Shown here: in pieces, positions 30,789 to 61,065 of the stretch
How the letters are laid out: the number at the start of each line of letters is the position of its first letter
Numbering within the stretch: position 1 is the stretch's first letter
Assembly (NCBI GenBank): GCA_030068145.1
Contig: JAPJBO010000019.1
Location: 62,001 to 126,000, forward strand
Reading direction: 5' to 3'
Length of the DNA: 64,000 nucleotides
From: Diplonema papillatum
Lineage: Eukaryota > Euglenozoa > Diplonemea > Diplonemida > Diplonemidae
Made by a program: the position numbers and the translations under genes
Notes under the pieces: model-generated
What the model was told of the DNA's origin: nothing
Databases searched by the model: none
What the model saw: the letters and a program-made list of their open reading frames with translations, nothing else

Positions 30789-31027
30789 TTGTGCGCACTA
30801 GCGGAATCCACCTGCTTTGGGAAGTTTCATGTAGTACGCTGCCAACTACTACTTTTTAGTACCAACAATGCATTGTTAACACAAAAACCTTTTTCCCTAC
30901 CCAATCCCAAGCACCCTCTAAACGCGTTAGGGGACTTCACAAGGTTTCACAACGGAGTGACACAACACCCGAAACGAGCTGCACCCTCTTACTTTTCTCA
31001 ACCCCCCGCCATACTCAAGCCTCTACG

Positions 31028-31080
31028 GTCAACCGGAGACTTTAAAATACCGACCTTCTAATCCACAAATAACGCTAAAA
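31028..31080 (+). promoter_or_regulatory. Leader motif before a coding relic
   Basis: GTCAACCGGAGACTTTAAAA, then TACCGACCTTCTAATCCAC. Identical over its length to 36406-36458, and the flank on its left (ACTCAACCCCCCGCCATACT) is shared as well. Confidence 0.5.
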
Positions 31081-31283: not shown

Positions 31284-31674
31284 TACACGACGCACTTGTT
31301 AGCTGTTTTTTTTTTTTTTTTTTTTTTGGGACATAACCAGGGGTTTTTCCACTCACCAGTTTCGGGCCAAACCCGTGGTGAAAAAAAATTTCACTCCGGC
31401 AGAAAAGTTTTTCTGCCGGTGTGGTGTGGTGTGGGTGCCAGTCGACACGTGCCTGTGTCTGTCTGTGTGTGGTACGCGTCGTTGACCTCGTAGCCCCATA
31501 AGCGGGGGTCCCTCTGGCCCTTCACCCCACTCAAGTTTGGGGTGCTAGCTCACTCCCTACCCTCTTGCTCCTCTTCAGATCAAGCAGGAAACGGATTCAG
31601 AGAACATGCAGAACAGCTACACATGATGCCGTGAACGATGTAAGTAGAAGATGTAAGTAGAAATCACAAAGGGT

Positions 31675-32912
31675 TCATGCTGAAAGGCCAATTTTGCGCC
31701 TCTTGCGCTTAGCTCCTTCCGGGGCGTTGTCGAGATCGCCAGCAAGGTACATGGTCCGCAGGGTCACGGCCGACAATCCCTGAGCAAACAGGTCTATCAC
31801 TTCCTCGGCAGTTTCGTCGCTCATTTCCTTGTTGTCGGCATCAACAATGCGGAACATGGCCCAGAGTGTCGTGTTCAACAAGCGGTTTCGTAGCCTAGTC
31901 TTCACCCGAGCCAACGTGCTGAACTGACGCTCGCTCTCTGCCGACGAGGTTACAACTGTCTGCGCCAATTCAACAAGTACTTGCAAGGCCGGCATCCGAG
32001 TGCCTGCACAACCTTGGGGGGCAAACGCCTGGAATACAGCATCTGGTGTGTTACGGCGACGAAGTACTTCTTTGAGCAAAGTCCAGTCAGCAATCAGCTC
32101 GTCACGTGTGGAAGTCAAGAGAGGGGTGCCGACCTTCGTTTTCGTTTCGAACTCGGTGTCACTGTATGTTGGCCTTGGCATTTTCTCAGTGGCGGCCTCC
32201 ACCACAACATATTCCCTGTAAGTGACAGTTCCTGGCTGACACAAAAACTCATGGAGTTTGGTGATGGACTCGTCACCATAGTCTGTGACATGGGCATTAG
32301 CAGGCCAGACCTTCCGGTCGAAGATAGCAAAGTGACGCAAGATACCCTTGAACTCAAACCGTTTCTTTGTAGCACTCAGCAGAGCTTTGATGTACGGGGT
32401 CGCCACAGTGGAATGAAAGATTGTGAAAGCGCCCGGACTGAGAGCCACACCCGTTGCTGCGTAGAAAGACTTGCGCCAGGTTCCGTAATACTTGGTTACC
32501 TTCTTTGCCCTGTCTTCCGTTTGTAGCAGTTCGAGTTCTGCTTCGAGGAGGTCTGCTTCACGACACACATCTGCGACAGTTGTCCCAGTGTTCTGGAACA
32601 CAAGGGAGACAGCATGCATCTTTTGCAGAACATCGCAAGTGAGCATAAGACAAGCGAAGAACTGGGGAGTACTCACCTCTTTGTACAGGTATTCGGCCTG
32701 CGTGCTGTTTCGGTCTTTCCAGATGCGATGCAGGGCCTCGCGAATGGCACTGTACTGCTTGCGGATCACTGTCACACTTCTCCACCGGGCCAGCCAACGC
32801 GTCTCTGAAGGCTCCACAAGGGAACGGTTGACAGATTCGCACGTTGCCGCGAATTCTTCGTCAGCGAAGACAGAGTCCAACACGAGCTGGTTGATGTCAG
32901 AGTCCGAAAAAA
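31675..32912 (-). pseudogene. hAT-family transposase, 5'-truncated
   Basis: About 410 residues read on the minus strand. Near the start is SETRWLARWRSV, the TRW landmark found after the second catalytic region in hAT proteins. At the C-terminus is SSAESERQFSTLARVKTRLR followed by NRL, the hAT dimerisation signature. A basic tail (KRKRRKIGL) may be a nuclear signal. Family members are usually 600-800 residues with an N-terminal BED finger and three acidic catalytic residues. The BED finger, the first Asp region and the C-x-x-H region are missing here, and no ATG precedes the coding part, so this copy cannot be autonomous. The truncated 5' side abuts a minisatellite inside the element. It resembles the ZNF862/ZMYM-like branch of hAT. 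Confidence 0.85.
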
Positions 32913-32917
32913 TTAAC

Positions 32918-33078
32918 CACAACGACCCACCCACACTGTCCACCACAACCCGCGCCCTTACCACCCACAACCCACGCCCCGACCACACACAACACGCACC
33001 CACTCCACCACCAGCGCCCACCACCCACGCCCACCCACACTGTCCACCACAACCCGCGCCCTGACCACCTACACCCAG
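32918..33078. repeat. Minisatellite inside the hAT element
   Basis: CCACACTGTCCACCACAACC, then CGCGCCCT and ACCACC-ACACCCA phrases are repeated three to four times. The long frame on the minus strand reads Gly/Val/Trp-rich sequence through it and is not a real N-terminus. Confidence 0.7.
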
Positions 33079-33249
33079 CAACGCAAAATCCCTTTAGTGA
33101 AAAAAGTTTTTTCACCAAGCCCATTTTGGGATTTTTTTTTTTTTAGTGAATTTTTTTTTTTCACTAAAGGGGAAAATCCCTGGACATAACTAGTTATGTT
33201 TCTGATAAGTGATGTAACAAGTGGTCACTTGTTATATGGTACGATGCCA

Positions 33250-34490
33250 AAAGGGGGGGGGGGGTTGGGCAGATGTTTTATGGCATAGTAAGATACTGGG
33301 CATGTGGGGTATGGGACCCATATCCCCCAAGAAACCATTTTCTCGGGCCGGTTTTGGGGCCAAATGCCCTCGGAGAGCCTTTTTCTGAGCGCAAAACTCT
33401 GTTTCTGTGGGTTTCGAGGCCCCGCACGGTGCACTCCAGCATCGTGTGGGGGTGTTAACTGTGCGGCCAAAGTGTCGGGCGTGGGCACACCTGCTAGATC
33501 CAGTGTGCCACACCCGCAAATCCAGCGTGAAATCCACTGACACCCAAAAATCCAGTGCGGAATCCAGTGTGACACCCGCAAATCCAGTGTGAAACCCACT
33601 GTACACCAGCTAAAACAGTTCCCCAAGTTGGATCGAGTCACCTGTCGTCCAACGCAAATCAATCATCAAGGAGGCGAGGCCCCTGGTTGTTAAAAAAGCT
33701 GACCCCAGGTTCTTCTGGCAGTATTGGCAACTTTTATTGGCAGAAATCGGCTTGTCGGATCGAAAGAAGTGAGTTTGCTGCTGGTAACCTCACGAAGGCG
33801 ATGGTTAATCGTGTTCCCTTCTGCAGGTGTCGCACACGTCCGGCCAGGTGTTCGAACCGGGCACCACGTAGCTGGCGGTACGTGGTGTACGACACCTTTG
33901 CCGTTAGTTGGCCTTCTTCGTCCACCAGCCTGTGCTAGAAGGATTTGTGCGACGAACGTCTTGTGCACGACAGCTTTTCCGTGACCCACGACGTCGGTGG
34001 TTGCCTCCACGAGATCGTCGAATGCCTGCTGCCTCATGGGTCACCTTTGTCGGTCGCCCTCTGTACAGAGACCCCGGGCGCAATCGGGTCAACTCCTGCA
34101 GCTTTCATCAGAAAGGCTCTCGTCGCTCTAAAGTGTCTCCGCATGGAGCCCTGTGACCTATCGTACTTCGTGTGCGTCTTGCCTTGCAAATTTTTGAGCC
34201 AATTCTTCGAACGAAACGCATTTACGAGTCACGCATTCTGAGAACAGAGTTAAGTTCCTGTTCTGGGTGGGTGCTGCCGCCGTAGCCATTGTACAGTCGT
34301 AACCCTACCTGGGGCCTCAAAGTCCACAACAACTGAGTTTTGCGCTCAGAAAAAGGTTCTCCGAGGGCATTGGACCCCAAAATCGGCCCGAAAACATGGT
34401 TTCTGGGGGGGTATGGGTCCTATACCCCACATGCCCAGTATCTGACTATACCAGAAAACATCTGCCCAACCCCCCCCCCCCCCCCCCCCT
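33250..34490. mobile_element. Inverted-repeat element with G-run termini
   Basis: The left arm (33253-33399) and the right arm (34334-34489) are inverted copies over about 150 bp. Landmarks in order are the G run, TTGGGCAGATGTTTT, ACTGGGCATGTGGGGTAT, GGACCCATA, TCGGGCCG, AATGCCCTCGGAGA and TTTTTCTGAGCGCAAAACTC. It interrupts a palindromic array of the larger element. The phrase TACGATGCCAAAAGGGG at the left end also occurs at the right border of the block ending near 39270 (as CCCCTTTTGGCATCGT). The interior has a GTGTGACACCCGCAAATCC-type minisatellite (33485-33600) and no recognisable gene. Confidence 0.65.
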
Positions 34491-34494
34491 ACGT

Positions 34495-34640
34495 GATATA
34501 ACAAGTCACTTGTTATATAACAACAACACTTGTTATATAACAAGTGATCAACAAGTGATATAACAAGTGATCACTTGTTATATAACAAGTGATTGCTTGT
34601 TATATAACAAGTGATTGCTTGTTATAACAAGTGTTTGGTT
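34495..34640. repeat. Palindromic array ACTTGTTATATAACAAGT
   Basis: Six to seven head-to-tail units of about 20-22 bp, each a palindrome (TCACTTGTTATATAACAAGT), with variants TGATTGCTTG and TCAACAAGTG. Similar arrays are at 33215-33245, 36725-36840, 39275-39312 and 41342-41425. Confidence 0.85.
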
Positions 34641-36654
34641 GCAATTTCATAAGGAACCTGGGGTTTGCACCTACCTACGAGAGAAAATCAGTGATCTGCA
34701 AGACACAAGGCTCCACCTGGTCCAGACAAAAATATCGGGGAGTTTCGGGGAAATTCGGGGAGTTTCGGGGTATTTCCTTTGTGACGACCACTTTCCCTGC
34801 AGCCGGCCATGGCGGGGAGGGGGCTACGCTATTATGGCCCTACCTTGCGCAGAGCGGTCCCGTGTTCGGTTATGCCCCGAAGACGAAGATAGAGGCTGAG
34901 AAGGAAGGACAGACTGGGAGGTACAGGTTGACACGTTTTGACACAGGTAGCTACAGGATCCGCTGCGGTAAGGACGTTCCACCAGAGGTCGTGCGGGTAC
35001 AGAGACGATGCTCGTGCTCGAGTCGCAGTTGGGGACGAACAGGCACGCCTTCAATGACGAGGTCTGGGAGATGGACGTATTTTCCACGTATGGGGAGGAA
35101 AGGATCGGACGTGCTGGTGGGACGCCTTCGAAGACGGCACCACCGGCAAGAAAGGGCAGAAGAGGGTAAATTTAGTGGGCGGCGGAGACCCAGTGCATGG
35201 AGGTGGCGTGCCCAGGCCACCACCAAGGACGAGAGAGTGCGCACGAGACATCACAGCTTGAATACCAAGCGCTTGCCCCTACTTCTGGACACCGAAGGGG
35301 AAGCTCGTCTTTACCCCTTGGATCTGCTTGAACCGAGCACGGCGATCGTCAGAGAGGCCGGGCACGGTGTCCAGTGAAAACGGCTCGAATTGCCTCGGCG
35401 AATTGCTCTTCCGGCTCTCCCCAAGAAGAAGACCCCTCCGCTTTAACGATGGACTGCTCCCAGTCGCAAACAGGGTTTCTGGATGGAACTCCCGCACTGC
35501 GTTGCTCAGTTCCGCCCGCTCTCGGCTACGCAGTTTTTCAGCCCATCTCTCGAATTTGTGCGGTGGTGCTGGCCTGCTGCAGCTGCTCACGATGGCCACC
35601 ATTCTTCGGCTTTTCTCTGTGCCGCTTTGCTGGCTGACATCCGGACTCTTGCAGTACTCTGACTGCACGCAGTCAATTTTAGGTGCAGTTCTGGTGTAAT
35701 CTTGCGGATTTTGGTTACCCCTGGTACCGAAAACCTGTGCATGCTACCATTACACTACCGTTACGCTACCGGTACGCACCCGGGACCAGCTTGATTGAAA
35801 AGGCATAGGATGGTTTTCAACAATATTCTGAGTCCAGTGTCCCAGTCTTGTGATCCGAGGGTGTGTTCTGGGGTCGTAACCACCCTGGATGTCGTTCTCT
35901 GTGTGCTCCCACAAGTCGACAAGGGAAATCTTCTTGCTAGAACATGACAGCTTTCTTGGGTGCACCACCCTGAGTGTACGGACCTTTTCTGGAGCATCTG
36001 AATGGGATATTATGGTCCCCTGAGTGCTTTTCTGCCCGCCAGATGTTGTGTGCTGCCAGTGGTAAATTTCTGGCAGTCTCGGGCTTCAGGAAGGCGTAAC
36101 GGTAACAGTCAATCTCGCTCCGTCAAATAGGCACAGCCCCCTGATTTTGTTAACGTTCGTCAACAGGCCGACAACCCTCCTTTTTTGGCTTTGGTGCATC
36201 AAATACGCAGTTCCGCAGCTTTTTGGCCGTAAATTCGGTGTCATGCCACAGTGGAGGTGATGCGTAATACCTGGAGTACGGTCACCGCCTTGGGCGATAT
36301 TTTTGTTTGTGCGATTTAACCTGTATGTGGTTTGGTTAAACCGCTGCCAACGTTCTTTTTAGCTGTAACAAATACTCAACCCCCCGCCATACTCAAGCCT
36401 CTACGGTCAACCGGAGACTTTAAAATACCGACCTTCTAATCCACAAATAACGCTAAATACTGTCTCCAGGGAAGCAGAAATTGGTTATCGCAAAAAACAC
36501 GAAATCACGCTCGTTTGGCTGGGCCGTGGTGGTACCCCGGCCCGGGGGTTTTCACACGACAAGAAACTTCGACCCACAGAAAAACGCCGAATGAGCGGTT
36601 CGGGTGTGCAAATGCCAAGCGTGCTTACAGCAACCGTTTGTTTGCCAAAAGCCT
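34641..36654. other. Interior of the foldback element; possible coding relic
   Basis: Holds the segment shared with 7665-7845 (35060-35240, inverted) and repeat O copy 2 (36208-36300), followed by a leader-motif copy (36406). A minus-strand frame 35279-35668 (129 residues, e.g. FERWAEKLRSRERAELSNAV, later GLSDDRRARFKQIQGVKTSF) has natural-looking composition and may be a relic of the element's protein. I recognise no family. Confidence 0.35.
36406..36458 (+). promoter_or_regulatory. Leader motif inside the foldback element
   Basis: Same sequence as 31028-31080 (GTCAACCGGAGACTTTAAAA, TACCGACCTTC), together with about 30 bp of shared left flank. The following sequence differs and no gene is evident. 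Confidence 0.45.
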
Positions 36655-36885
36655 AGTGTCTTGCAGATCACGTGACTTTCTCTCGTAGGTAGGCACAAAC
36701 CCCAGGTTCCTCATGAAATTGCAACCAAACACTTGTTATAACAAGCAATCACTTGTTATATAACAAGCAATCACTTGTTATATAACAAGTGATCACTTGT
36801 TATATAACAAGTGACCACTTGTTACATCACTTGTTAGAAATATAACTAGTTATGTCCCAAAAAAAACAGCTAACAAGTGCGTCGT

Positions 36886-38016
36886 GTAGGGCTAAGTTGG
36901 ATGGAAACGCCGTTTCTTTTAGTTTTTTCGAAATAAGGAAACGGAAACGGAAACGGAAACGTTTCCGTTTCTTTTAAAAGAAACGCCGGAAGGCTCTTCA
37001 TGCTGAGGGGTCCTATAAGATACCACTTCACGGGTCCTTCTGTGAGTCCGTCTGGCGGGCTCTCTGACTCTTCAGGGCCCTTCGACTTGGCTCGGCCCCT
37101 TCTTGTGTGTCGTCGCGGTCTCGTTTGTGCAGAGCAGTCGCCGGTGCTCACCGCTTTCTTTCGTCGGCGATCTGACACGAGCAAATAGGTAACCACAAGC
37201 TAATGATGCAGAATGTCGTCACATGTGGATGTTTTCTGACACCAGATTCCACCCTTCTGTGCCTACCACTTCGTCTTCTGCTGCTTCCAACCCACGAGTG
37301 GGGCTTGTTGAATCTGCCGTCCTCTTCTGCATTGTTGGTGGTTTCTTCCTGCCGTCGTTGTCTATGCTCCGACAACACCGCCCCTTCCGGTGACGGTTGC
37401 CACCCGTCGTCGTATGCAAGGTGCACTGTGGCAAGCGATGTTTAACGCACACGTTACTGCGTGGCCATCGCTTTTCTGGCGGGTTCAACATTGCCCCGGC
37501 ATACGTGTGCCCTTCTCACCTCCTGATGCTGATTGCACTCCCTCTTTGTCTTACACCGCCGAAAGACCCCGGTCTTGTAGCCTGTGGCGCTGAACGATCG
37601 TATCTGTAGAGTCTATTATTGGAAGCGGATGTGCTTTCCCGATCGTCTTCAGCGCGTTGGCCAACAGCCTCGCATAACAGAGCATCGTCGCCACAACAGC
37701 CATTGGTGTAAAGAGCTGCAGACCTCAAAGTCAGCACAACCGGATGCGTGTGGTTGCGTCTGCTCCACGCGGTCGCAACTCTTATGCTTCTTTCCTCCCT
37801 CTTTTCGGAGCCTCCTTGTCCATGGTTTCCCACTGGATTGCGGGGTCCGCCGTTCGGAACACATTTCCGGTCGGACCTTCAGCCAGTATACTAGTGGCAT
37901 ACCAGCCGTTTCTTTTGAAAAGAAACGGCGTTTCCATCCACCGCCAAAAAGAAGGAAACGGAAACGGAAACGGAAACGGAAACGTTTCCAACGTTTCCAT
38001 CCTACATAGCCCTAGG
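36886..38016. mobile_element. Inverted-repeat element with GGAAAC-rich arms
   Basis: The left arm begins TAGGGCTAAGTTGGATGG, then AAACGCCGTTTCTTTT. The right arm ends with the reverse complement (AAAAGAAACGGCGTTTCC ... CATCCTACATAGCCCTA). Both arms contain tandem GGAAAC hexamers (four to five copies), and CGTTTCC follows them. It is fused to the right end of the 31.3-36.9 kb element, sharing CGTCGTGTA. The interior (37.0-37.9 kb) has no recognised gene. Confidence 0.55.
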
Positions 38017-39223
38017 GGGGGTCAAAAGGTCTTTTTTTGCGTCAAAATGGTGACATTTTCAGCCTGTAGACTTAACGGCAGTTTAAGCCTAAAAAAACAT
38101 GCAACCCGCCTCAGAAATGCCCGGAAACGTGTTTTTGGGGGAAGTTTCATGGAAAATGGCCCAGGGGGGGGTGTATTAGTTGATGGTTTTAGGGTGGACA
38201 CCGTTTGGTACCGGCTAGCAGCCTGTGGGTGTGCTTCACTGTTCATACCATGCAAAGATGAGACTACAATCACGTACAGGCAGCCACAAATGGAAGCAAC
38301 AAAAGGGCGAACGACACCCAGGAGGAAGGCAGCTATGAACGTTGCTCGTCTGGATGGTTAACAACGTCCCAAAAGGTTCTCTGGGTCTTGCGCAAGCTGA
38401 GGTGCTGTTGACACCGCAGGCAGCAGCTCTTCCCCGAACTTCTGCTAGAGCGATATTCACAAAGTTCGATGTCTTTCCGAGAAAAACAATGAGATGCTAT
38501 CATCCGTAGTGGGATTTTCCAGATTCCAACGTTTTTGTTGAAGGGATGCACGCGACAGTGTCGTTTATTCAAGTTCGCCTTTCGTACACCACCCGAAAGG
38601 GTCGCATTGCACACGCACGGAAGACAATACTGGTCACCGGGGTGTATCTCTGGTACCTAACCCCAACGCACGTTGAGCTTGAACAAAAATAGAAAACTGG
38701 ACTTGAACGAAAAGGTTCGGCGGTGGATTTATAGGACTGCCACGACATAGCAGCTCAGGGCAGGGTATCTGCAGCTTGCGGTAGCACGCTACACGACACA
38801 GGCCACTACGAAAGCTGGCGCTGACGTCAAGGACTCGAGGGGGCGGCACGTTACGAAGCCGTACCTCATTGAGTCGCTTGTCGGTGCCTCCTACGAAGCC
38901 CCACCATCCCCAACTCTCAGGAAAGTCTTTTGAGTAAAAACACATAGGTTTGGGCAGTGTTGTTTTCCTTCTTCGGTTCATGCTGTCACTATTTTTGGGG
39001 TTGTCACCTAAAAAGAAGAACACCGGTACCAAACGATGTCCACCCTGAGTCCAAAAATTGGGCACTCGTAAAAAGGCCTTTTCGGGGCACTTCAGCAGCC
39101 AAAAAGCATGTTTTAGGCATTTCTATACGGTTCTGGGGTGGTTTACCAAATTGTATTGCCTCTTAGGAGCCCCTATGTGGTTCTCAAAAAAATGACCTAT
39201 TTTGACAGCTTTTGACCCCCCCT

Positions 39224-39256
<33 letters not shown>

Positions 39257-39270
39257 TTTTGGCATCGTCT
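38017..39270. other. Block bounded by GGGGGGGTCAAAAG
   Basis: Left GGGGGGGTCAAAAGGTC and right CTTTTGACCCCCCC are inverted over about 14-20 bp. The right border is a very long C run (about 39224-39256). A further small inverted-repeat element is possible. A minus-strand frame at 38634-39065 has some protein character but no motif. Confidence 0.35.
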
Positions 39271-39694
39271 CATATAACAAGTGATCACTTCTTATAACAA
39301 GCAATCACTTGTTATATCAGTCATTCTCCTGGCGACCGTTCAAAAATGACCATCCTTTTGCAGCGCATACAGTCACCAAAGGTGTCACTAAATCGACCAA
39401 TCTTTGATGCTATGAGCGCAGGTGTCCCTGGTCTCTCTGTTCCCGGGGTTTTAGAAAAAAATGACGACCCACCTTGGACAAGTTCGGCCCGATATAATTA
39501 TTTTTAGATTATACCGGGGCGCGTGCGATACGTGCCTGTTGCTCCCGAGAAGACACGGAATGGAAAGATCGGTCACGAAATCGTCAAAATACCACCTCGG
39601 ATCACACAAAAGGTTGTCCCCCCATGGCCCTCCTGTTGCACCCCACTTCACCAGGCAAATTCCCATCACCCTATGAACGCACTTCAGAACTCGG

Positions 39695-39940
39695 ATGGCG
39701 GGTACTGAAGAACAGGGATGCTGCAAAATCTGCGGTGCGAAAACCTGGAGAACGGTTGCTTCGTTTCCTCAGCCCGTGTCGCGTGTGCTCGAAGTGAAGA
39801 AGAGACTGGCACAAGAGGACTTCATCTGCTTGAAGTGCCTCCAGGAGTGTGGTGCCACGTACACCTTCGGACGAAGTGCATACGACTACGACTGCAGCGG
39901 CAACAACTACAACTGCAAGTTGCAAGGGTCGAACCTTTTT
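39695..39940 (+). pseudogene. Cys-rich (zinc-ribbon-like) protein, cut by repeat B
   Basis: ATG 39695 opens a frame with MAGTEEQGCCKICGAKTW, then about 30 residues, then FICLKCLQECGATYTFGRS and YDYDCSGNNYNCK. The C-x2-C pairs suggest a zinc-binding fold. After about residue 80 the frame enters a family B copy (from about 39938), so the natural C-terminus is missing. It shares the inverted-repeat element with the zinc-knuckle gene and may be the first exon or first gene of that element. Confidence 0.45.
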
Positions 39941-40085
39941 TACATAAGCGCCAGCTTGAAAGGAAATGCTCGACGATGCTGCCCGACAACGAACCGAAGG
40001 GATCCCAAGTGCTGTAACTACCGAACCACGTGTTGAACGGACGTGAGGTCATGCGGGTCTACCCCTACGCGACAAATCACACAAA
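39938..40085 (-). repeat. Dispersed repeat family B, copy 6, 3' half
   Basis: TTTTTTACATAAGCGCCAGC to GCGACAAATCACACAAAC in minus orientation. The missing 5' half appears at 40642-40788, so one B copy has been split by about 555 bp. Confidence 0.7.
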
Positions 40086-40588
40086 CAAACGGCTTGCTTG
40101 GATAGCCTTCTTACCATGACGACATGCAACCTGGCAGATGCAGATACAGGTTACGCTTACATATACTCCACGGGTACCTAGTGTGCCCAGAGAGCCTTTT
40201 CTGTGGCGAGCAACAAACAGACTAACCTCCCTGTATTTTTTAAAAAAAAACTTTCTTTCTTTATTTACTTCTATTCGCGACTCCTTGCTACGTTAATTGT
40301 AGCACCCCACCCGTATTGCAATACGATATAGTTACGGATATTCAACCTGCGCCAACCATAAGCAGCACCACAAATACACGAAAAGAGACGGTCAGACGGT
40401 ACCAAGAAGACAGACAGTCACCTACTGCGGCGCCATACTGAGGAGGGCCTACCGTAAGTAAGGTATGTGGACAATGGCCGAAACCACCAATGACCAACGA
40501 CCAAGGTACCCACCGATCCTCTCACCTCGTGTAACCACCACTCTTACGACACTCAGAGCACAAAGAATATCTTCCCTTAACGACGAAG
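40086..40588. other. Insert splitting the family B copy
   Basis: About 500 bp with no gene, ending in the leader motif at 40589. The duplicated base at the junction is at most a few nucleotides (CACAAAC / AAACACA), so I cannot define a clear target-site duplication. Confidence 0.4.
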
Positions 40589-40641
40589 GTCACCCGGAGA
40601 CTTTAAAACCCCGGAGTTTCAAGCGAACTTTCACTCTAAAC
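40589..40641 (+). promoter_or_regulatory. Leader motif upstream of the zinc-knuckle gene (best consensus)
   Basis: GTCACCCGGAGACTTTAAAA, then CCCCGGAGTTTCAAGCGAAC and TTTCACTCTAAAC. Together with 5180 it defines the consensus. The following B-repeat half would form the transcribed leader before the ATG at 40790. Confidence 0.6.
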
Positions 40642-40788
40642 ACAACAGGTCAAAAGTCGTGAGTGAGAAAACAACACACAGTGGTGTAAGCGAAGACCAA
40701 ATCAGATTGTGTTTGTATTGTATTTGCCCCTTACCTCTATATTTCCCCCCTTCCATTCGGAGTCGAAGCAGCTACGTCGAGTATTGTA
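40642..40788 (-). repeat. Dispersed repeat family B, copy 6, 5' half
   Basis: CAACAGGTCAAAAGTCGTGA to CAGCTACGTCGAGTATTG in minus orientation. Its end is directly followed by the ATG of the zinc-knuckle gene. Confidence 0.7.
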
Positions 40789-40789
40789 T

Positions 40790-41185
40790 ATGCCACGCTG
40801 CCGGGATTGCGGAGGAGGTCGCCATACCCAGAAAACTTGCCCCGAGAAGCAACGTGTATGCGGAAGATGCAAACAGAAGGGCCACAGTCGACGAACTTGC
40901 GACCAGGGAAGTGAAGATTCAAGTGATTCTGGCACTGATTCTTGCTCTGCCTCTGCCTCTGACTCTGTTGCGAAAGGTTCAGCTTCCAAGGAAGCAACCG
41001 CAACTCAACGCAAGTGCACGCGCTGCGGCAAACCTGGTCACAACTCTAGAACGTGTGGTCGGTTTCAAGAAAGCGTCAGCACGTGCAGCACAAATTCTTC
41101 CGAAGCCAGTTCTGAGGAAGCCAGCCCCACCCAGCGCACGTGCACGACTTGTGGCCAGCCAGGGCACAACTCGATTTGGGCTTAA
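40790..41185 (+). CDS. CCHC zinc-knuckle protein, 131 residues
   Basis: Three complete knuckles of the form C-x2-C-x4-H-x4-C: CRDCGGGRHTQKTC (residues about 4-17), CGRCKQKGHSRRTC (about 24-37) and CTRCGKPGHNSRTC (about 76-89). A fourth, CTTCGQPGHNS, lacks its last Cys because the frame ends IWA-stop. A Ser/Asp-rich linker separates the pairs. Zinc knuckles bind single-stranded nucleic acid. They are typical of cellular CNBP-like factors, splicing proteins and mobile-element Gag-like proteins. The location inside terminal inverted repeats favours an element-borne accessory protein. The missing last Cys suggests a frameshift near 41170: the neighbouring frame continues to 41291 with a basic tail (RSDSKRFKNALGPKKMTRV). 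Confidence 0.75.
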   Translation: MPRCRDCGGGRHTQKTCPEKQRVCGRCKQKGHSRRTCDQGSEDSSDSGTDSCSASASDSVAKGSASKEATATQRKCTRCGKPGHNSRTCGRFQESVSTCSTNSSEASSEEASPTQRTCTTCGQPGHNSIWA

Positions 41186-41448
41186 GCCCGTCAACATCGA
41201 GCTTCGGAGCCCACCGAGGGTCGGAATGAAAAGATCGGATTCAAAACGGTTCAAAAACGCCCTCGGACCAAAGAAAATGACGAGGGTTTGACCATCCAGA
41301 TGGGTTCTTCCATATTTGAACGGTCGCCAGGAGAATGACTGATATAACAAGTGACACTTGTTATATAACAAGTGCCACTTGTTATACGTTTTCACTTGTT
41401 AGGTCACTTGTTATAAAACAAGTGATTGTGCACAAGTGCGTCGTGAAG

Positions 41449-54150: not shown

Positions 54151-54365
54151 GGCTCAAGCATGAGTAAAAAGTCTAGCCTGACGTCCAGGAAAGTTTCCCA
54201 TCCTAGCCCCCCACCCATGTACTCACAAAACTGAAGTGAAAACGCGCTCTAAAATAAGTCGAATAGTCGGCAACAAAGACACACGCACAAGCACCCGTAC
54301 TGCTGCTGCCGCAGATACAATACGCACACTAGTATACGATATCGGAAAGGAACCTTTCCGACATT

Positions 54366-54397
54366 GGTCACTTGGAGAGGGAACTTACACTCTAAAA
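54366..54397 (+). promoter_or_regulatory. Shortened leader motif before the RecQ4-like gene
   Basis: GGTCACTTGGAGAGGGAACT, then TACACTCTAAAAC: the two ends of the motif are present, but the middle (TTTAAAA, CCGG) is missing. It lies about 105 bp before the ATG at 54502. A palindromic CGGAAAGGAACCTTTCCG precedes it. Confidence 0.45.
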
Positions 54398-54501
54398 CAA
54401 ACAAAAGGTCGAAAAACACCAATCTGTACGTCCCACGGGGGACCGTCGGAAACACAAAACACAAAAGAACACACATCCACACACACCCTGGCGCCCCGAC
54501 C

Positions 54502-54678
54502 ATGAGCCTGTCCGCGCCGGGGGCGGGCCGGCGGAGGGCCGCGCGGGGGCAGCCGTTCACGGTGGCCGAGGCGGTCTCCGCCGTCGAGAAGATCGAGAGG
54601 GCCGCGAACAGCCGCAGACGGGCGGGCGAGTCCGACATTTTCGGCGGCGCCAGCGACGACGAGCCGCCGGGAGCGGCC

Positions 54679-54711
<33 letters not shown>

Positions 54712-54828
54712 TGCGTGCTCGAAATCATCTCGGAGCCAGTCGGCGTCCCCGAGAAGCCGGCTGCGAAGGCCAAGCGGAAAGCGGCGCCGCGGCCGCCGCC
54801 GAAAAGCGCACAACCCGGCGGGAGCCGC

Positions 54829-54864
<36 letters not shown>

Positions 54865-57800
54865 GCACCGCAGGAGGAAAACCCGCGAAAACAGAGCAAA
54901 CCCGCAGCGAAGCGCGGGAAAGCGGCTGGATCGGGGAGTCCGGCCAGCGGCGGCGAAGGCGCCGAACTTGACCCAGAAACGGCGGCCCCCGCGGCTTCGA
55001 AGCGGAAGCCGGCGGCGAAGAGGGGCAGCGGCGACGCCCGGAAGCCAGCGGGCAAGGGCAGGTCCTCTTCAGCGAAGCGCAGCGCCGTGGCACGTTCAAG
55101 CAGCTCCGATGGCAGCTCGAGCAGCGGTGAAGATGAAGGCGAGCCCAACTCAGAAACGGCAACCCCCGCGGCTTCTAAGCGGAAGCCGGCGGCGAAGAGG
55201 GGCAGCGGCGACGCCCGGAAACCGGCGGGCAAAGGCAGGTCCCCGACAGCAAAGCGCGGGAAGGCGGCTCGATCGGGGAGTCCGGCAAGCGGCGGCGAAG
55301 GCGCCGAACGTGACTCGGAAACGGCAACCCCCGCGGCTTCGAAGCGGAAGCCGGCGGCGAAGAGGGGCAGCGGCGCCGCCCGGAAGCCAGCGGGCAAGGG
55401 CAGGTCCTCTTCAGCGAAGCGCGGCGCCGTGGCGCGCTCAAGCAGCTCCGATGGCAGCTCGAGCAGCGGTGAAGATGAAGGCGAACCCAACTCAGGAACG
55501 GCAGCCCCCGCCGATTCGAAGCGGAAGCCGGCGGCGAAGAGGGGCAGCGGCGCCGCCCGGAAGCCAGCGGGCAAGGGCAGGTCCTCTTCAGCGAAGCGCA
55601 GCTCCGATGGCAGCTCGAGCAGCGGTGAAGATGAAGGCGAACCCAACTCAGGAACGGCAACCCCCGCGGCTTCGAAGCGGAAGCCGGCGGCGAAGAGGGG
55701 CAGCAGCCGGAAGCCAGCGGGCAAAGGCAGGTCCCCCGCAGCGAAGCGCAGCGCCGCGGCACGCTCGGCCAGCTCCGACGACGGCTCGGAACCGCGCGAG
55801 AACCGGAAAGCTGCCGCCGCAGAGAAGAAGGGCGGGCCCGCGGCGGCGGCGGCCGCCGGAGGCGGAAACGGGGTCGCGGTCGGCATCACGGTGACCCCGC
55901 CGAGCCCCGAGCCGGAGCAGGACCGCCTGCCGCCGGGCGGTGCGTGGCCGGCCGCCGTCGACCTCCCGATGACCCCGAGGCGGCGGCGCTTGCTCGCGCT
56001 GCGCGGCGCCGCGCCCGCAGCCCAGCCGCCGGGAATACCTCCGTCGTCGCACCCGGACCCGCCTTTCGAAGCGGCTGGTTCGCCGCAGACCGGTTTGCCG
56101 GGGCCCGGAGGGCCTGGAATTTCAGCAACCGGGGCTGGAGTTCCGAGCATTCCAGCAACCGGGCCCAGCATGCCAACAGCCGAGGCTGGAATCCCCAGCA
56201 TTTCAACAGCCGGGGCTGGAGTCCGTAGCATTTCGACAATCGGGGCTGGAGTTCCCAGCATGTCAACAACCGGGGCTGGAGTCTCAAGCATTCCAACAAC
56301 CGGGGCTGGAGTCTCAAGCATTCCAACAACCGGGGCTGGAGTTCCCAGCATCCCAACAACCGGGGCTGGAGTATCCAGCATTCCTACAACCGGGGCTGGG
56401 GCTGGAGTTTCCAGCATTTCAACAACTGCAACAGCCGGGGCTGCCGGAGTCCCCAGCATTTCAACTACAAGAACTTCAGCAGCTGGGGCTGCTGCAGTCC
56501 CGCCGGCCGAACCAGCGATCGCGGGAGTGTCCTCGGCGCATCGACCGCCCGACTCCCCCGCGTGCTCGTCCGCCTCCTCGCCGCTGATGCCGCGACGCGC
56601 TCGACCCGCGCCGGGCGACGCTGCCCGCGCGTGCTCGTTCCAAGGGGCGGAGGTCCCTTCGCCGCTCCTGCCGCGGAAGGCGCGCACGCCGCTGAGCGGC
56701 GGGGCCGCCGGCACTCGCGTTTCTTCGCAGGCGCACGGGCCCAGCTTGTCCCCGCGGTTCTCGGTGCAGGCGCCGTCGTCGCAAGCCGCCTCCCCGCCCG
56801 ACGCGGGGAGGGACAGCGCCGCGGCCGACGAGCCGCTCTCGACGACGCCGGCCTCCTCCGGCTGGCGGACGCCCACGCCGCGCCGTGCGCAGCTGCTGAA
56901 GGCGATCGAGGACGCGAACTGCGGGCGCGGGCCACCTGAGTTCTTCGACCCGCGCCTGCCCAGCTGCTCGCAGGACGCCGACAAGCCGGCGGCGGAGCAG
57001 ACCCCTCGGTCTCGGGCCCGCCGGCAAGCCAACCCGGCCGGGAAGCGGAGGCTCAACCTCGAAGCCGCGCCGCCGGGGGTCTCCACGAGCCAAAAAACTG
57101 GCGACGCATCCGGCGAGGGAACGGCCCCAGGGCTAGCGTCAAGGGACCCAGCGCTCGGGGGAAGCCGCCTTGAGGAGGCGGTGCGGGAGAGGCTGGGCGC
57201 GCCGGGGCCCGGGATTTCACCGAGCCAAAAACCTGGCGACGCATCCGGCGAGGGGAAGGCCCCAGGGCCAGCGTCGAGCCGCCTTGAGGAGGCGGTGCGG
57301 GAGAGGCTGGGCGCGCCAGGGCCCGGGATTTCACCGAGCCAAAAACCTGGCGACGCATCCGGCGAGGGGAAGGCCCCAGGGCCAGCGTCGAGCCGCCTTG
57401 AGGAGGCGGTGCGGGAGAGGCTGGGCGCGCCGGGGAAGCGCGCGAACGGCGCGTCGCCAGCGAAGCGGCGGAAGGTAGCTGGCGGCGGGCGGCCGGGAAG
57501 CGAGGATGCGGGCGGCGCTGGCAACGGGGACGGAGCCCCTGCCGGGGCGCTGCCGGACGCGTCGTCTGAAGAGAGCCGATCTCCCGGATCAGCTGCGGGG
57601 GAGCCGCCGAAGAGGCGCAGGCTCGCCTCCGGCGCGGAACCAGCGCCCGCCGGTGTTGAACGCGGAGGGAAGACCGTCCCACCAGAGGCGGCAGCCGCCA
57701 ACGGCGCGCACCCGGCGAAGCGGGAAGGCGGAAAGGCTGCGGGATCCGCCGCGAAGCGGCGTAAGGTCGCCTCGGGGCCCGAACCAGCCGGAGACGGCGA

Positions 57801-60800
57801 CACGCCGTCGTTCGCCATCCCGCCGACGCTGCGCGAAGAGGCGGCGGAGCTGCAGAGGCGGGCCAGCGTCTCGGGGCTGATCCCGGAGGAAGACATGCCG
57901 GGCGACACTCTGTTTGAGAGCGTCCTGCAGGAGGCCTTCGGGTACCCCTCCTTCCGGGGGGGGCAGCTGGAGAGCGTCAAGCGCGTGATTTCGGGGCGGT
58001 CGACGATCACCGTGATCCCCACGGGGTCTGGGAAGAGCTTGATCTACCAGTTTTCGATCTACGTACTGCGTCTCGCGTCGCCGAGGACCCCCGCGTACTG
58101 CATAGTGATCAGCCCGTTGCTCGCGTTGATGAGTGATCAAGTCCGGAGGACGCCGAAGTGTTTGACTGCGGTGAGCGTTTCGTCTGAAATGGGGCGAGAC
58201 GCTCAGGTGCGGTGCTTCCAGAAGGTGCAAGCGGGTGCCGTGCAGATCGTGCTGACGTCGCCGGAGAGAGCGGCCGACTCGAAGACGTTCCACGCGTTCG
58301 TGGCGAGCAGCCGGGATTGCATCGCGTTCACGTGCATCGACGAGGCGCACTGCCTCAGCGAGTGGTCGCACAACTTCCGCCCGAGCTACCTGCGGCTCCG
58401 CGGGAGTCTGCTGCTGCAGTACGGGCTCGACCGCAAGCCGGTGCTGTGCCTCTCCGGCACGCTGCCGATCGCCACGTCCCGGTTCCTGGCTTCGTCGCTT
58501 TCGAACGCGCGCACGCACGGCACCCACACACTTCCAGGCGCCGACGCCCAACTCGCCGCCATCTCCAACCAACTCAACGCACCCACGACCCCGGAAACCA
58601 AACCCAAACCCACGAACCCACTCACGACCAGCAACCCAATCGCTGCAGATGCCGTCCATCCCGCGCAAGCAGTGGGTGGACCCGGGGTCGGTCCCGCGGG
58701 CCAGTCGACGGAGCCAGCTCCGGTTTGCGCCCCGGCCGCGAATACCATCCAATCATTCCTCTCCGACCGGCCGACGCCGTGCCCTGGCGCTGCGCCGGCG
58801 GAGTCGAGTGTCCGCCAACCCCCCCTTCTCTTCGCCCAACCGACGCGCAGCGCGGGCGTTTCGGCGGAATCGACGCTCTCGACCGCAACCGCCCCTACCG
58901 CTTCGCGGACCAGCCTTCAACCGGCCCAGCGTCCCCCCGATTTAGCAGCCGCAGCCGTGGCGGCGCAAACGAACCCCGCCGGTGGGCTGGAATCCGCTTC
59001 TTCATCGAGGCTCGTCGCTGCGCCCCCCGTTGGCAGCCCGGTGGATGCGCATTCGGCCGCGGAAACGACCTCCGCCAGCGCTGCGCCCCCCGTAGGAAGC
59101 CCGCTGGATGCGGGCTCGTCCCCTCTCCAAACGGCTGCAGGGACGGCGGCAGGAGCAGCCTGCGCACTGCCCCCCGGCGACAACCCGGCCCCTCTCCAAG
59201 AGGCAAGCCACCGCCCGAGCACGAACCCGTCAGCCTCCCCCCAACAACCTGGCGAAGCAGCGTCAGAGGTGGCCCCGCCGGCGACGGCGGCGGGAGCGGC
59301 CCCCTGCGCACTGCCCCCCGGCGAAAACCCGCCCCCTCTCCAACAGGCAAACCCGTCAACCTCCGCCCAACCGCTTGGCGAAGCAGGGCCGCCGGAGGCC
59401 CCGCCGGCGGCGGCGGCGGGTGCCGACGACCGCGTGTTCGCAACCTTCGCCCGGCCGCGCGCGGCAGCGGGGGCGGGCGAGGACTCGGTGGGCGTCGTGC
59501 GCTGCGTGGAGCCGCGGACGAACTTGAAGCTGTCGTCGGAGGTGCTGCAGGAGGCCGGCGTGCGCGACCGGCGGGACCGCGACACGCTGTGGCTCAACGC
59601 GATCGTGAAGACCCTCACGGAGAGCCCGTTTAACGTCGGGGCGACGATTGTGTACGTCACGACGCAGAGCCAGGCCGACCTCGTCGCGGGGTACTGCGTC
59701 CAGCGCGGCATCGACGCCGTCAGCTTCCACGCCGCCGCCCCCGCGAAAGCCTCGCGGCAGGCGAAGTTTCTCGGGAACCAAGTCCGAGTGCTCGTGGCGA
59801 CAGTCGCGTTCGGCATGGGAATCGATAAGCCGGACGTTCGCGGCGTCGTGCACGCGCGGCTGCCGCCGTCGCTCGAGACTTACGCCCAGGAGATCGGACG
59901 GGCCGGCAGAGACGGCGCCGTCAGCCACTGCAAGGCGATCATCCGCGAGGAGGACTACTTCTCGACGTGCAGCACCGTCCACCGGAACGAGCTGAGCCCC
60001 GCCGTGCTCAGGTGGGTCGTCCTCGAGATCTTCGAAGCGACGGACGACGGCCGGCGAAAGCGGGCGGCCAAGGGTGTGGAGCTGAAGTACCCGCTGCACC
60101 GTCTCGTGCGTACGGAAGAGCTATCGCGCGCGGTCGGCGCGTCGCCGGAGGTGATCGAAACGATCCTGACCATGCTCCTCCTCGACTTCCCCGGGGTCAT
60201 CAGCAGCCGCGGGTCCCTCCCGGGGACGGCTAGTGTGTTCGTCGCGTCGATTGTCGCCGGCGGCGCGTCCGCGTCGATCCGCGCGAAGCCGGCGGCGTTC
60301 CCGCGCCCGGATGCTTCGCGGGGCGAGCCGGCGTCGAGCAACCCGTGGGGGGCCGCGACTCTGGTTCTCGTGGGGGACACGTGGGAGACGGAGGATCGCG
60401 TCGCCCGGCATGTGTTGAAGTGTTATGCCATGACGCAGAGGGCCGGGGTCACCGGCCGGAGGGTGTACAAAACGGTGAGCATCGACCTCTGCGCGGCCTC
60501 ACGCGAGCTCGACCTCGCTCCCACCGTCATCATCGACCGGCTCGAACAGCTCAAGCGCGCGAAGAACTGGCGGATGACCTTCCGCGACACCTCGATGTCC
60601 GTCGTCATCAGCCGCCCCACCCCCGCCCCTGCGCTGGACTCCATCGTCGACCACCTCACCGAGCGCCTCACCCAGCTGCGGAGCAAAGAGGCGGACAAGG
60701 TCCGGGTGTGCTACGCGTTCCTCAAAAGCATGTCGTCGGACCCGACGTTCCCGGCGCACGAGTACCTGGACCGGTACTCGTGCGAGGAGGTGTCCGACGA

Positions 60801-61065
60801 GGCGTCGGCGTTCCACGAGCTGCTGGCGGTGCCGCGGCCGGCGCCGTCGACGCTGCGGGTCGAGCCGCACGAAGCGATCCTGCACGCTGTCAACGCGGAT
60901 CCAACTGGGCTGGCGGACCCCGTCTTCGTCGCAAAGCTCTGCCACGGGCTGCTCCCGTACCCGCACTCGCTCCCGGGGCACCCGCTGTGGAGGGCCTTCT
61001 TGGACCACGACTTCGAATGGCTCAAGCAACAGGCCGCCTTCGCCCACAAGGAGCTGCAGGGATGA
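54502..61065 (+). CDS. RecQ4-like DNA helicase with giant disordered extensions
   Basis: An uninterrupted frame of 2187 residues from ATG 54502. Helicase core: FRGGQ (residue 1151, motif 0), PTGSGKS (1173, Walker A), VISPLLALMSDQV (Ia), DEAH (1280) in IDEAHCLSEWSHNFRPSYLR, ATIVYVTTQSQ (1714), VATVAFGMGIDKPDVRG (V) and QEIGRAGRDG (1796, VI). The SEWSHNFRPSYLR loop is characteristic of RecQ4 proteins, which act in replication initiation and DNA repair in the nucleus. Oddities: motif III reads SGTLP (1318), where RecQ proteins have TAT. About 330 low-complexity residues (Pro/Ala/Thr-rich, 1330-1660) follow it. The N-terminal 1100 residues are disordered, with an Asp run, an Ala run, Lys/Ala/Ser repeats of about 55 residues (154-423), TTGAGVPSIP-type repeats (534-657) and three copies of VRERLGAPGPGISPSQKPG (860-980). 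Part of this may be unrecognised intron. The upstream in-frame extension to 54364 lacks an ATG. Confidence 0.85.

Follow-up and report, generated by a model that had tools for sequence, protein, structure and literature searches.

Palindromic arrays as probable subterminal regions of a transposon family with a predicted RAG1-fold transposase

CACTA/EnSpm elements carry subterminal repeats in both orientations and two genes, TNPA and TNPD. According to one account, they also combine CAC ends with 2-bp duplications (PMC6004678). AanRAGL of the pelagophyte Aureococcus has CAC ends and two genes on one strand, the RAG1-like gene being downstream (PMC9435367), and the fungal ESTA is described with TA duplications and a similarity to RAG1 found by HHpred (PMC12730594). 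Galileo, a member of the P-element superfamily, has long ends of foldback-like type, whose internal tandem repeats hold multiple transposase binding sites (PMC3688188). Here, we analyse a 64,000-nucleotide stretch of Diplonema papillatum DNA (the window; contig JAPJBO010000019.1, positions 62,001 to 126,000), in which the region 31286-41445 combines portions of two copies of a single transposon family with several unrelated inserts. We think it quite probable that the palindromic arrays of this region are the subterminal regions of a family of cut-and-paste DNA transposons whose second open reading frame (ORF2) has a predicted RAG1 fold, with the palindromes docking the element's own proteins. 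The family is large and apparently recently active.

The ends of the family recur across the genome with different flanks. In 271 Mb, the 20 bases of terminus A are found at 177 exact places, the 23 bases of terminus B at 161, and the 20-base palindrome CACTTGTTATATAACAAGTG at 962; none of the reversed patterns used as controls is found at all, and the palindromes, noted in a preliminary description of this DNA, are thus above chance. The element ends are fixed and begin with CAC, and most elements have one A and one B end. Pairing was studied on contigs up to C488, among the first 100 of the 177 A ends and, out of 161 B ends, 92 of the 100 that were listed, with neighbours less than 20 kb apart: 60 neighbouring pairs face each other, spanning 168 to 15,425 bp, and 38 A ends and 34 B ends are unpaired. 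As 58 of these pairs have unlike ends, the symmetric copy in the window, one of only two A-A pairs, is exceptional.

This copy, which we call E1 (31286..36886; previously placed at 31284-36888), has two identical A-type termini, one at 31286..31305 (+) and its inverted counterpart at 36867..36886 (-), with TA outside each. It contains no family gene and would therefore be served in trans by full-length copies, which have genes of their own elsewhere in the genome; of the earlier proposal of mobilization in trans, the part that concerns the window copy stands, and it does not extend to the family. Over 35140-36886, its right part, E1 shares 99.8-99.9% identity with copies on C6 and C108 that are flanked differently, which points to recent movement. 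Its interior from 34493 tracks the C6 element (98% over 34493-35438), but where the left end of E1 is of type A, the C6 copy is of type B, and we therefore take E1 to be a rearranged A-A derivative. Such a chimera is what one would expect if a local rearrangement merely resembled mobile elements; for the family, however, we reject that explanation as scarcely credible, as hundreds of dispersed ends have varied flanks and unoccupied sites exist. The preliminary description had itself proposed a mobile family, to be given up if the arrays were only local or the ends inconsistent, and the genome-wide check found neither.

Three sister families are present in the genome. The palindrome of each is distinct and 18-22 bp long, and it recurs mostly at intervals of 21-22 bp. 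The termini are CACGACGCACTAGT in family 2, whose palindrome is GCTAGTTATATAACTAGC, and CACGGTGCAGTAGTAAA in family 3, whose palindrome is CACTTGTAAATTTTACAAGTG; for family 2, CACGACGCACTAGTNA is at 172 places, and the B-end pattern of family 3 is likewise at 172. The family-3 copy at locus L075 is without its 5' end, which is present in L076 and L077, after TA in each. Read directly from the sequence, a half-site of the family's own palindrome sits in the terminus after CACGACG or CACGGTG: TTGTTA in family 1 (A end), TAGTTA in family 2 (B end), and TAGTAAA in family 3. Among palindrome spacings below 60 bp, those of 21-22 bp make up 11/12 in L039, 37/38 in L042, 7/7 in L074, and 4/4 in L075, and only 3/6 in the disturbed window region. 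A further relative, at 252142-252395 of C254 (L040) and in the left flank of L038, has the terminus CACGGTGCACTAGT and palindromes like CACTTTTACTAGTG, and adjoins family-1 copies.

With letters that vary by family and a symmetry and spacing that stay constant, the palindromes have the look of places where a dimeric protein docks. Each of them would be bound by a two-fold-symmetric protein that the element itself encodes, be it ORF2, the product of the other reading frame ORF1, or both; with a spacing of about two helical turns, the sites would be on the same face of the DNA, so that an array could load several dimers and unite both ends. As the termini carry half of their own family's palindrome, one recognition rule could serve both the cut site and the array. 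By analogy, Galileo is a tested precedent for transposase binding sites within repetitive arms, although it has a THAP domain and a P-type transposase and is a separate family; THAP is not among the matches listed in our Pfam searches of ORF2 and its family members. The arrays could instead have another role, such as host-factor binding, protection from silencing, or satellite-like expansion within the ends, and their variable length, with 39 palindromes in a fragment of the C6 element (L042) versus 15 in the whole C4 element, is what replication slippage would give. Against this, the units keep mostly the same distance in three families despite the changes of letters, and the half-site of each family recurs in its termini; we regard such other roles as unlikely.

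Most family copies have no family gene. Full-length copies are 4.2-4.5 kb in size, with ORF1 followed by ORF2 on one strand; the C4 copy, of 4486 bp, encodes an ORF1 of 345 aa and an ORF2 of 630 aa, read on one strand from the A end to the B end. Counting was based on scoring of the best candidates. Among these, intact ORF2 copies number at least 15 in family 1 (at 1474-1478 bits), at least 16 in the second family (65%), and at least nine in the third (55%), with a single common score in each of the latter two. A near-full-length ORF1 is found upstream on the same strand in 12/15, 16/16, and 9/9 of them, respectively, and ORF1 and ORF2 thus occur together in 37/40 intact copies. This retention bears on a foldback-type explanation, in which what moves is the pair of long, inverted and repetitive arms, driven by an unrelated transposase, and ORF1 and ORF2 are passengers. 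The architecture, rightly likened to foldback elements in the preliminary description, is indeed present: the window copy and full-length copies alike have arms of tandem palindromes in inverted order, in L039 and L074 both ends bear inverted arrays, and the majority of copies lack a family gene. Yet the gene pair has been kept in three families, and the palindromes differ with the family, which makes passenger genes very improbable.

ORF2 is predicted to be a DDE transposase with a RAG1/Transib fold and C2H2-like fingers at its C-terminus, with D109, D187, and E391 as the putative catalytic residues. H369-x3-H373 and E391 are invariant in 10/10 sequences, and SAFC, that is S(2)C, follows the second catalytic D in all eight sequences that cover it; the RAG1 motifs used for comparison are general background. 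In structure comparisons with two models of ORF2 homologues, whose confidence is modest, RAG1 comes first in all four lists; RAG1, BbRAGL, and HzTransib are at the top of both structure lists, with the P element 1-2 Z units or more lower. By sequence, RAG1/Transib is absent from the best 60 of 64 PDB matches to ORF2 at E<=10, and NCBIfam matches of ORF2 and its homologues are chance-like (seven families, one member each, best E 0.035). ORF2 could instead belong to a different group of DDE transposases, for example P-element-like, hAT-like, or unrelated, in which case its resemblance to RAG1 would come from a general RNase H core that has a helical insertion. The gap to the P element in the structure lists, together with CAC ends and LHD and H(3)H motifs that fit the RAG1/Transib clade, makes this improbable, and we retain the predicted RAG1/Transib fold.

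None of three ORF1 proteins has a RAG2 or kelch match in Pfam at E<=5, a PDB search by sequence gave one match (E 0.31), and of 7994 candidate relatives scored outside the source genome, none reached E<=0.01. Within it, C547 and C187 carry ORF1 relatives at 28%, which hints at additional families. For ORF2 in viral contigs, 46 stretches fit the pattern and none was confirmed.

Target sites were studied in 18 elements with both ends within the examined loci, a sample separate from the window copy. In 17 of them, the same 2 bp are found on both sides (12 TA, three CA, one TT, and one CC), the CC-flanked element being a family-2 copy on C12 within a C run; the one without matching dinucleotides is a 254-bp A-B pair on C254. 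Outside 79 ends that are distinct by their 25-bp flank, though with duplicated assembly regions possibly remaining among them, the dinucleotide is TA in 47, TG in 13, CA in seven, and another in 12. With TA so frequent, matching flanks alone are weak evidence, and relatives with the site unoccupied say more. Two of these, with one TA, exist for the C1504 element, L063 (98.7% over 75 columns) and L053 (97.4% over 78); that of the C6 element, L024, is less clean (94.9% over 78, one gap). A point against the proposed mode of insertion is the C42 element, whose unoccupied relatives carry 19-24 bp extra between two TA steps and which is therefore not a simple insertion. For most of the 18 joined flanks, the search gave no usable unoccupied site, with either no match or matches via G/C runs. 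Given the element ends and the duplications, the transposase would cut beside CAC and join the ends with a stagger of 2 bp at a TA-like step. A run of at least seven G or C lies within 25 bp outside 33 of the 79 distinct termini.

Among described systems, the CMCT clade shares with the family its CA..TG ends, a duplication length in the range of 2-5 bp, H(3-4)H, and a RAG1-like fold. Our elements have a predicted RAG1-like DDE fold, H(3-4)H before the last catalytic E, CAC..GTG termini, and the 2-bp duplications, but in place of the clade's C(2)C after the second catalytic D, they have S(2)C; no sequence match was found, and a partner ORF1 and palindromic arrays are not mentioned in what is available on the clade. 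ESTA, compared by description, is similar in its 2-bp duplications with a preference for TA and in a RAG1 similarity visible only by structure-aware comparison; it differs in that our family also has CA, TT, and CC duplications (TA 12/17, other 5/17), and it is fungal, while the host here is presumably of a different kind. AanRAGL shares the CAC ends, the gene order, and a microbial eukaryote as host, but it makes 5-bp duplications, its first gene is RAG2-like, and palindrome arrays are not described for it. The 5-bp target duplication of Transib and RAG-like transposons is replaced here by 2 bp, with a single TA at unoccupied sites. CACTA/EnSpm resembles the family in its short CAC ends, subterminal repeats in both orientations, and two-gene layout; the termini, however, are CACGACG or CACGGTG rather than CACTA/CACTG, the repeats are 18-22-bp palindromes, and Pfam's CACTA transposase model, which we take to be Transposase_21, is listed neither for ORF2 (E<=5) nor for any of 10 members (E<=1). 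Since the fold, ends, duplication, and H(3)H agree but C(2)C does not, we see a divergent lineage that works like the CMCT clade and do not file it as Transib, CACTA, or a RAG-like transposon.

Within the window, the preliminary description had treated 31-41 kb as one system, but the region consists of several unrelated elements nested in one another. The sequence CACGACGCACTTGT does occur three times, as reported, starting at 31286 (+) and ending at 36886 (-) and 41445 (-). E1 has arrays in its left arm (34493..34641, with an extra piece at 33191-33240) and right arm (36722..36835), and its left arm has received two later insertions, both of them recognized before. One is a hAT element (31338..33182, -) with a duplication of 8 bp, GACATAAC, at 31330-31337 and 33183-33190, and an open frame at 31675-33093 that matches Pfam Dimer_Tnp_hAT (23.9 bits, cut-off 21.4); the other is a G-run element with approximate borders (about 33240..34489) and inverted arms, 33253-33423 and 34311-34481, that are 89% complementary. 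The E1 stretch 36298-36491, missing from L041 and L043, includes 83 bp identical to 30997-31079, which adjoins E1 on the left; this may be repeat sequence that was captured or is shared.

To the right of E1, palindromic arrays had been described as separators, whereas the blocks abut with TA alone between them: an unrelated element with ends GGGCTAWGTWGGATGGAAACG (GGGCTA; 36889..38012) is followed by another with ends GGGGGGGTCAAAAG (GGGGGGG; 38015..39222), each with TA on both sides, giving the order TA|31286-36886|TA|36889-38012|TA|38015-39222|TA, next to a C run. Elements of three unrelated kinds thus stand in series, and 36887-39224 gives the impression of a single TA step in repeated use. 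Beyond lies the second family copy, with an array remnant at 39271..39317 and an array with a B-type terminus (41432-41445) at 41342..41445 (-); a partner end with matching flank was not found. Nested in its array is a CAGTCATTCTCC element (39318..41341, +) with ATAT on both sides: the last element of the preliminary description exists, with these borders and not 39311-41348. Its Cys-rich (39677-40036) and zinc-knuckle (40667-41185) frames had been considered as machinery of the arrays, but they belong to the separate CAGTCATTCTCCTGGCGACCG family, with 159 exact termini genome-wide, and the zinc-knuckle candidate was rejected, its Pfam zinc-knuckle matches being under the curated cut-offs. The CAGTCATTCTCCTGGCGACCG family often sits in palindrome arrays: on contigs C1-C438, 10/49 of its elements have a listed terminus of family 1 or family 2 no more than 1.5 kb away, with about 0.3 expected by area. 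The copy at 39318..41341 is an extra case, its adjoining B-type end being outside that list, and a shorter relative of the CAGTCATTCTCC element lies inside a family copy on C254 (L040). Farther along the window, the open frame 54253-61065 (+; 2270 aa) has long low-complexity regions and helicase-like stretches, presumably akin to RecQ.

No description of this family was found in the literature searched; Repbase and preprints were outside that search, and absence from print is not established. We would suggest, tentatively and with somewhat less than even confidence, that the family is a new branch of RAG1-fold transposons at the superfamily level in a microbial eukaryote, probably still moving, with a previously unseen partner in ORF1, helically phased palindrome arrays that assemble the ends, and a half-site of terminus and array that changes together, so that sister families in one nucleus stay apart. 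Whatever its rank, the family is a divergent addition to the group that gave rise to RAG1. It has apparently moved recently, and its distinct traits are the 2-bp stagger, a modified zinc motif, and a new partner gene. The coexistence of three sister families in one genome, with palindrome and transposase altered in step, amounts to a natural experiment on how transposases recognize their own ends.
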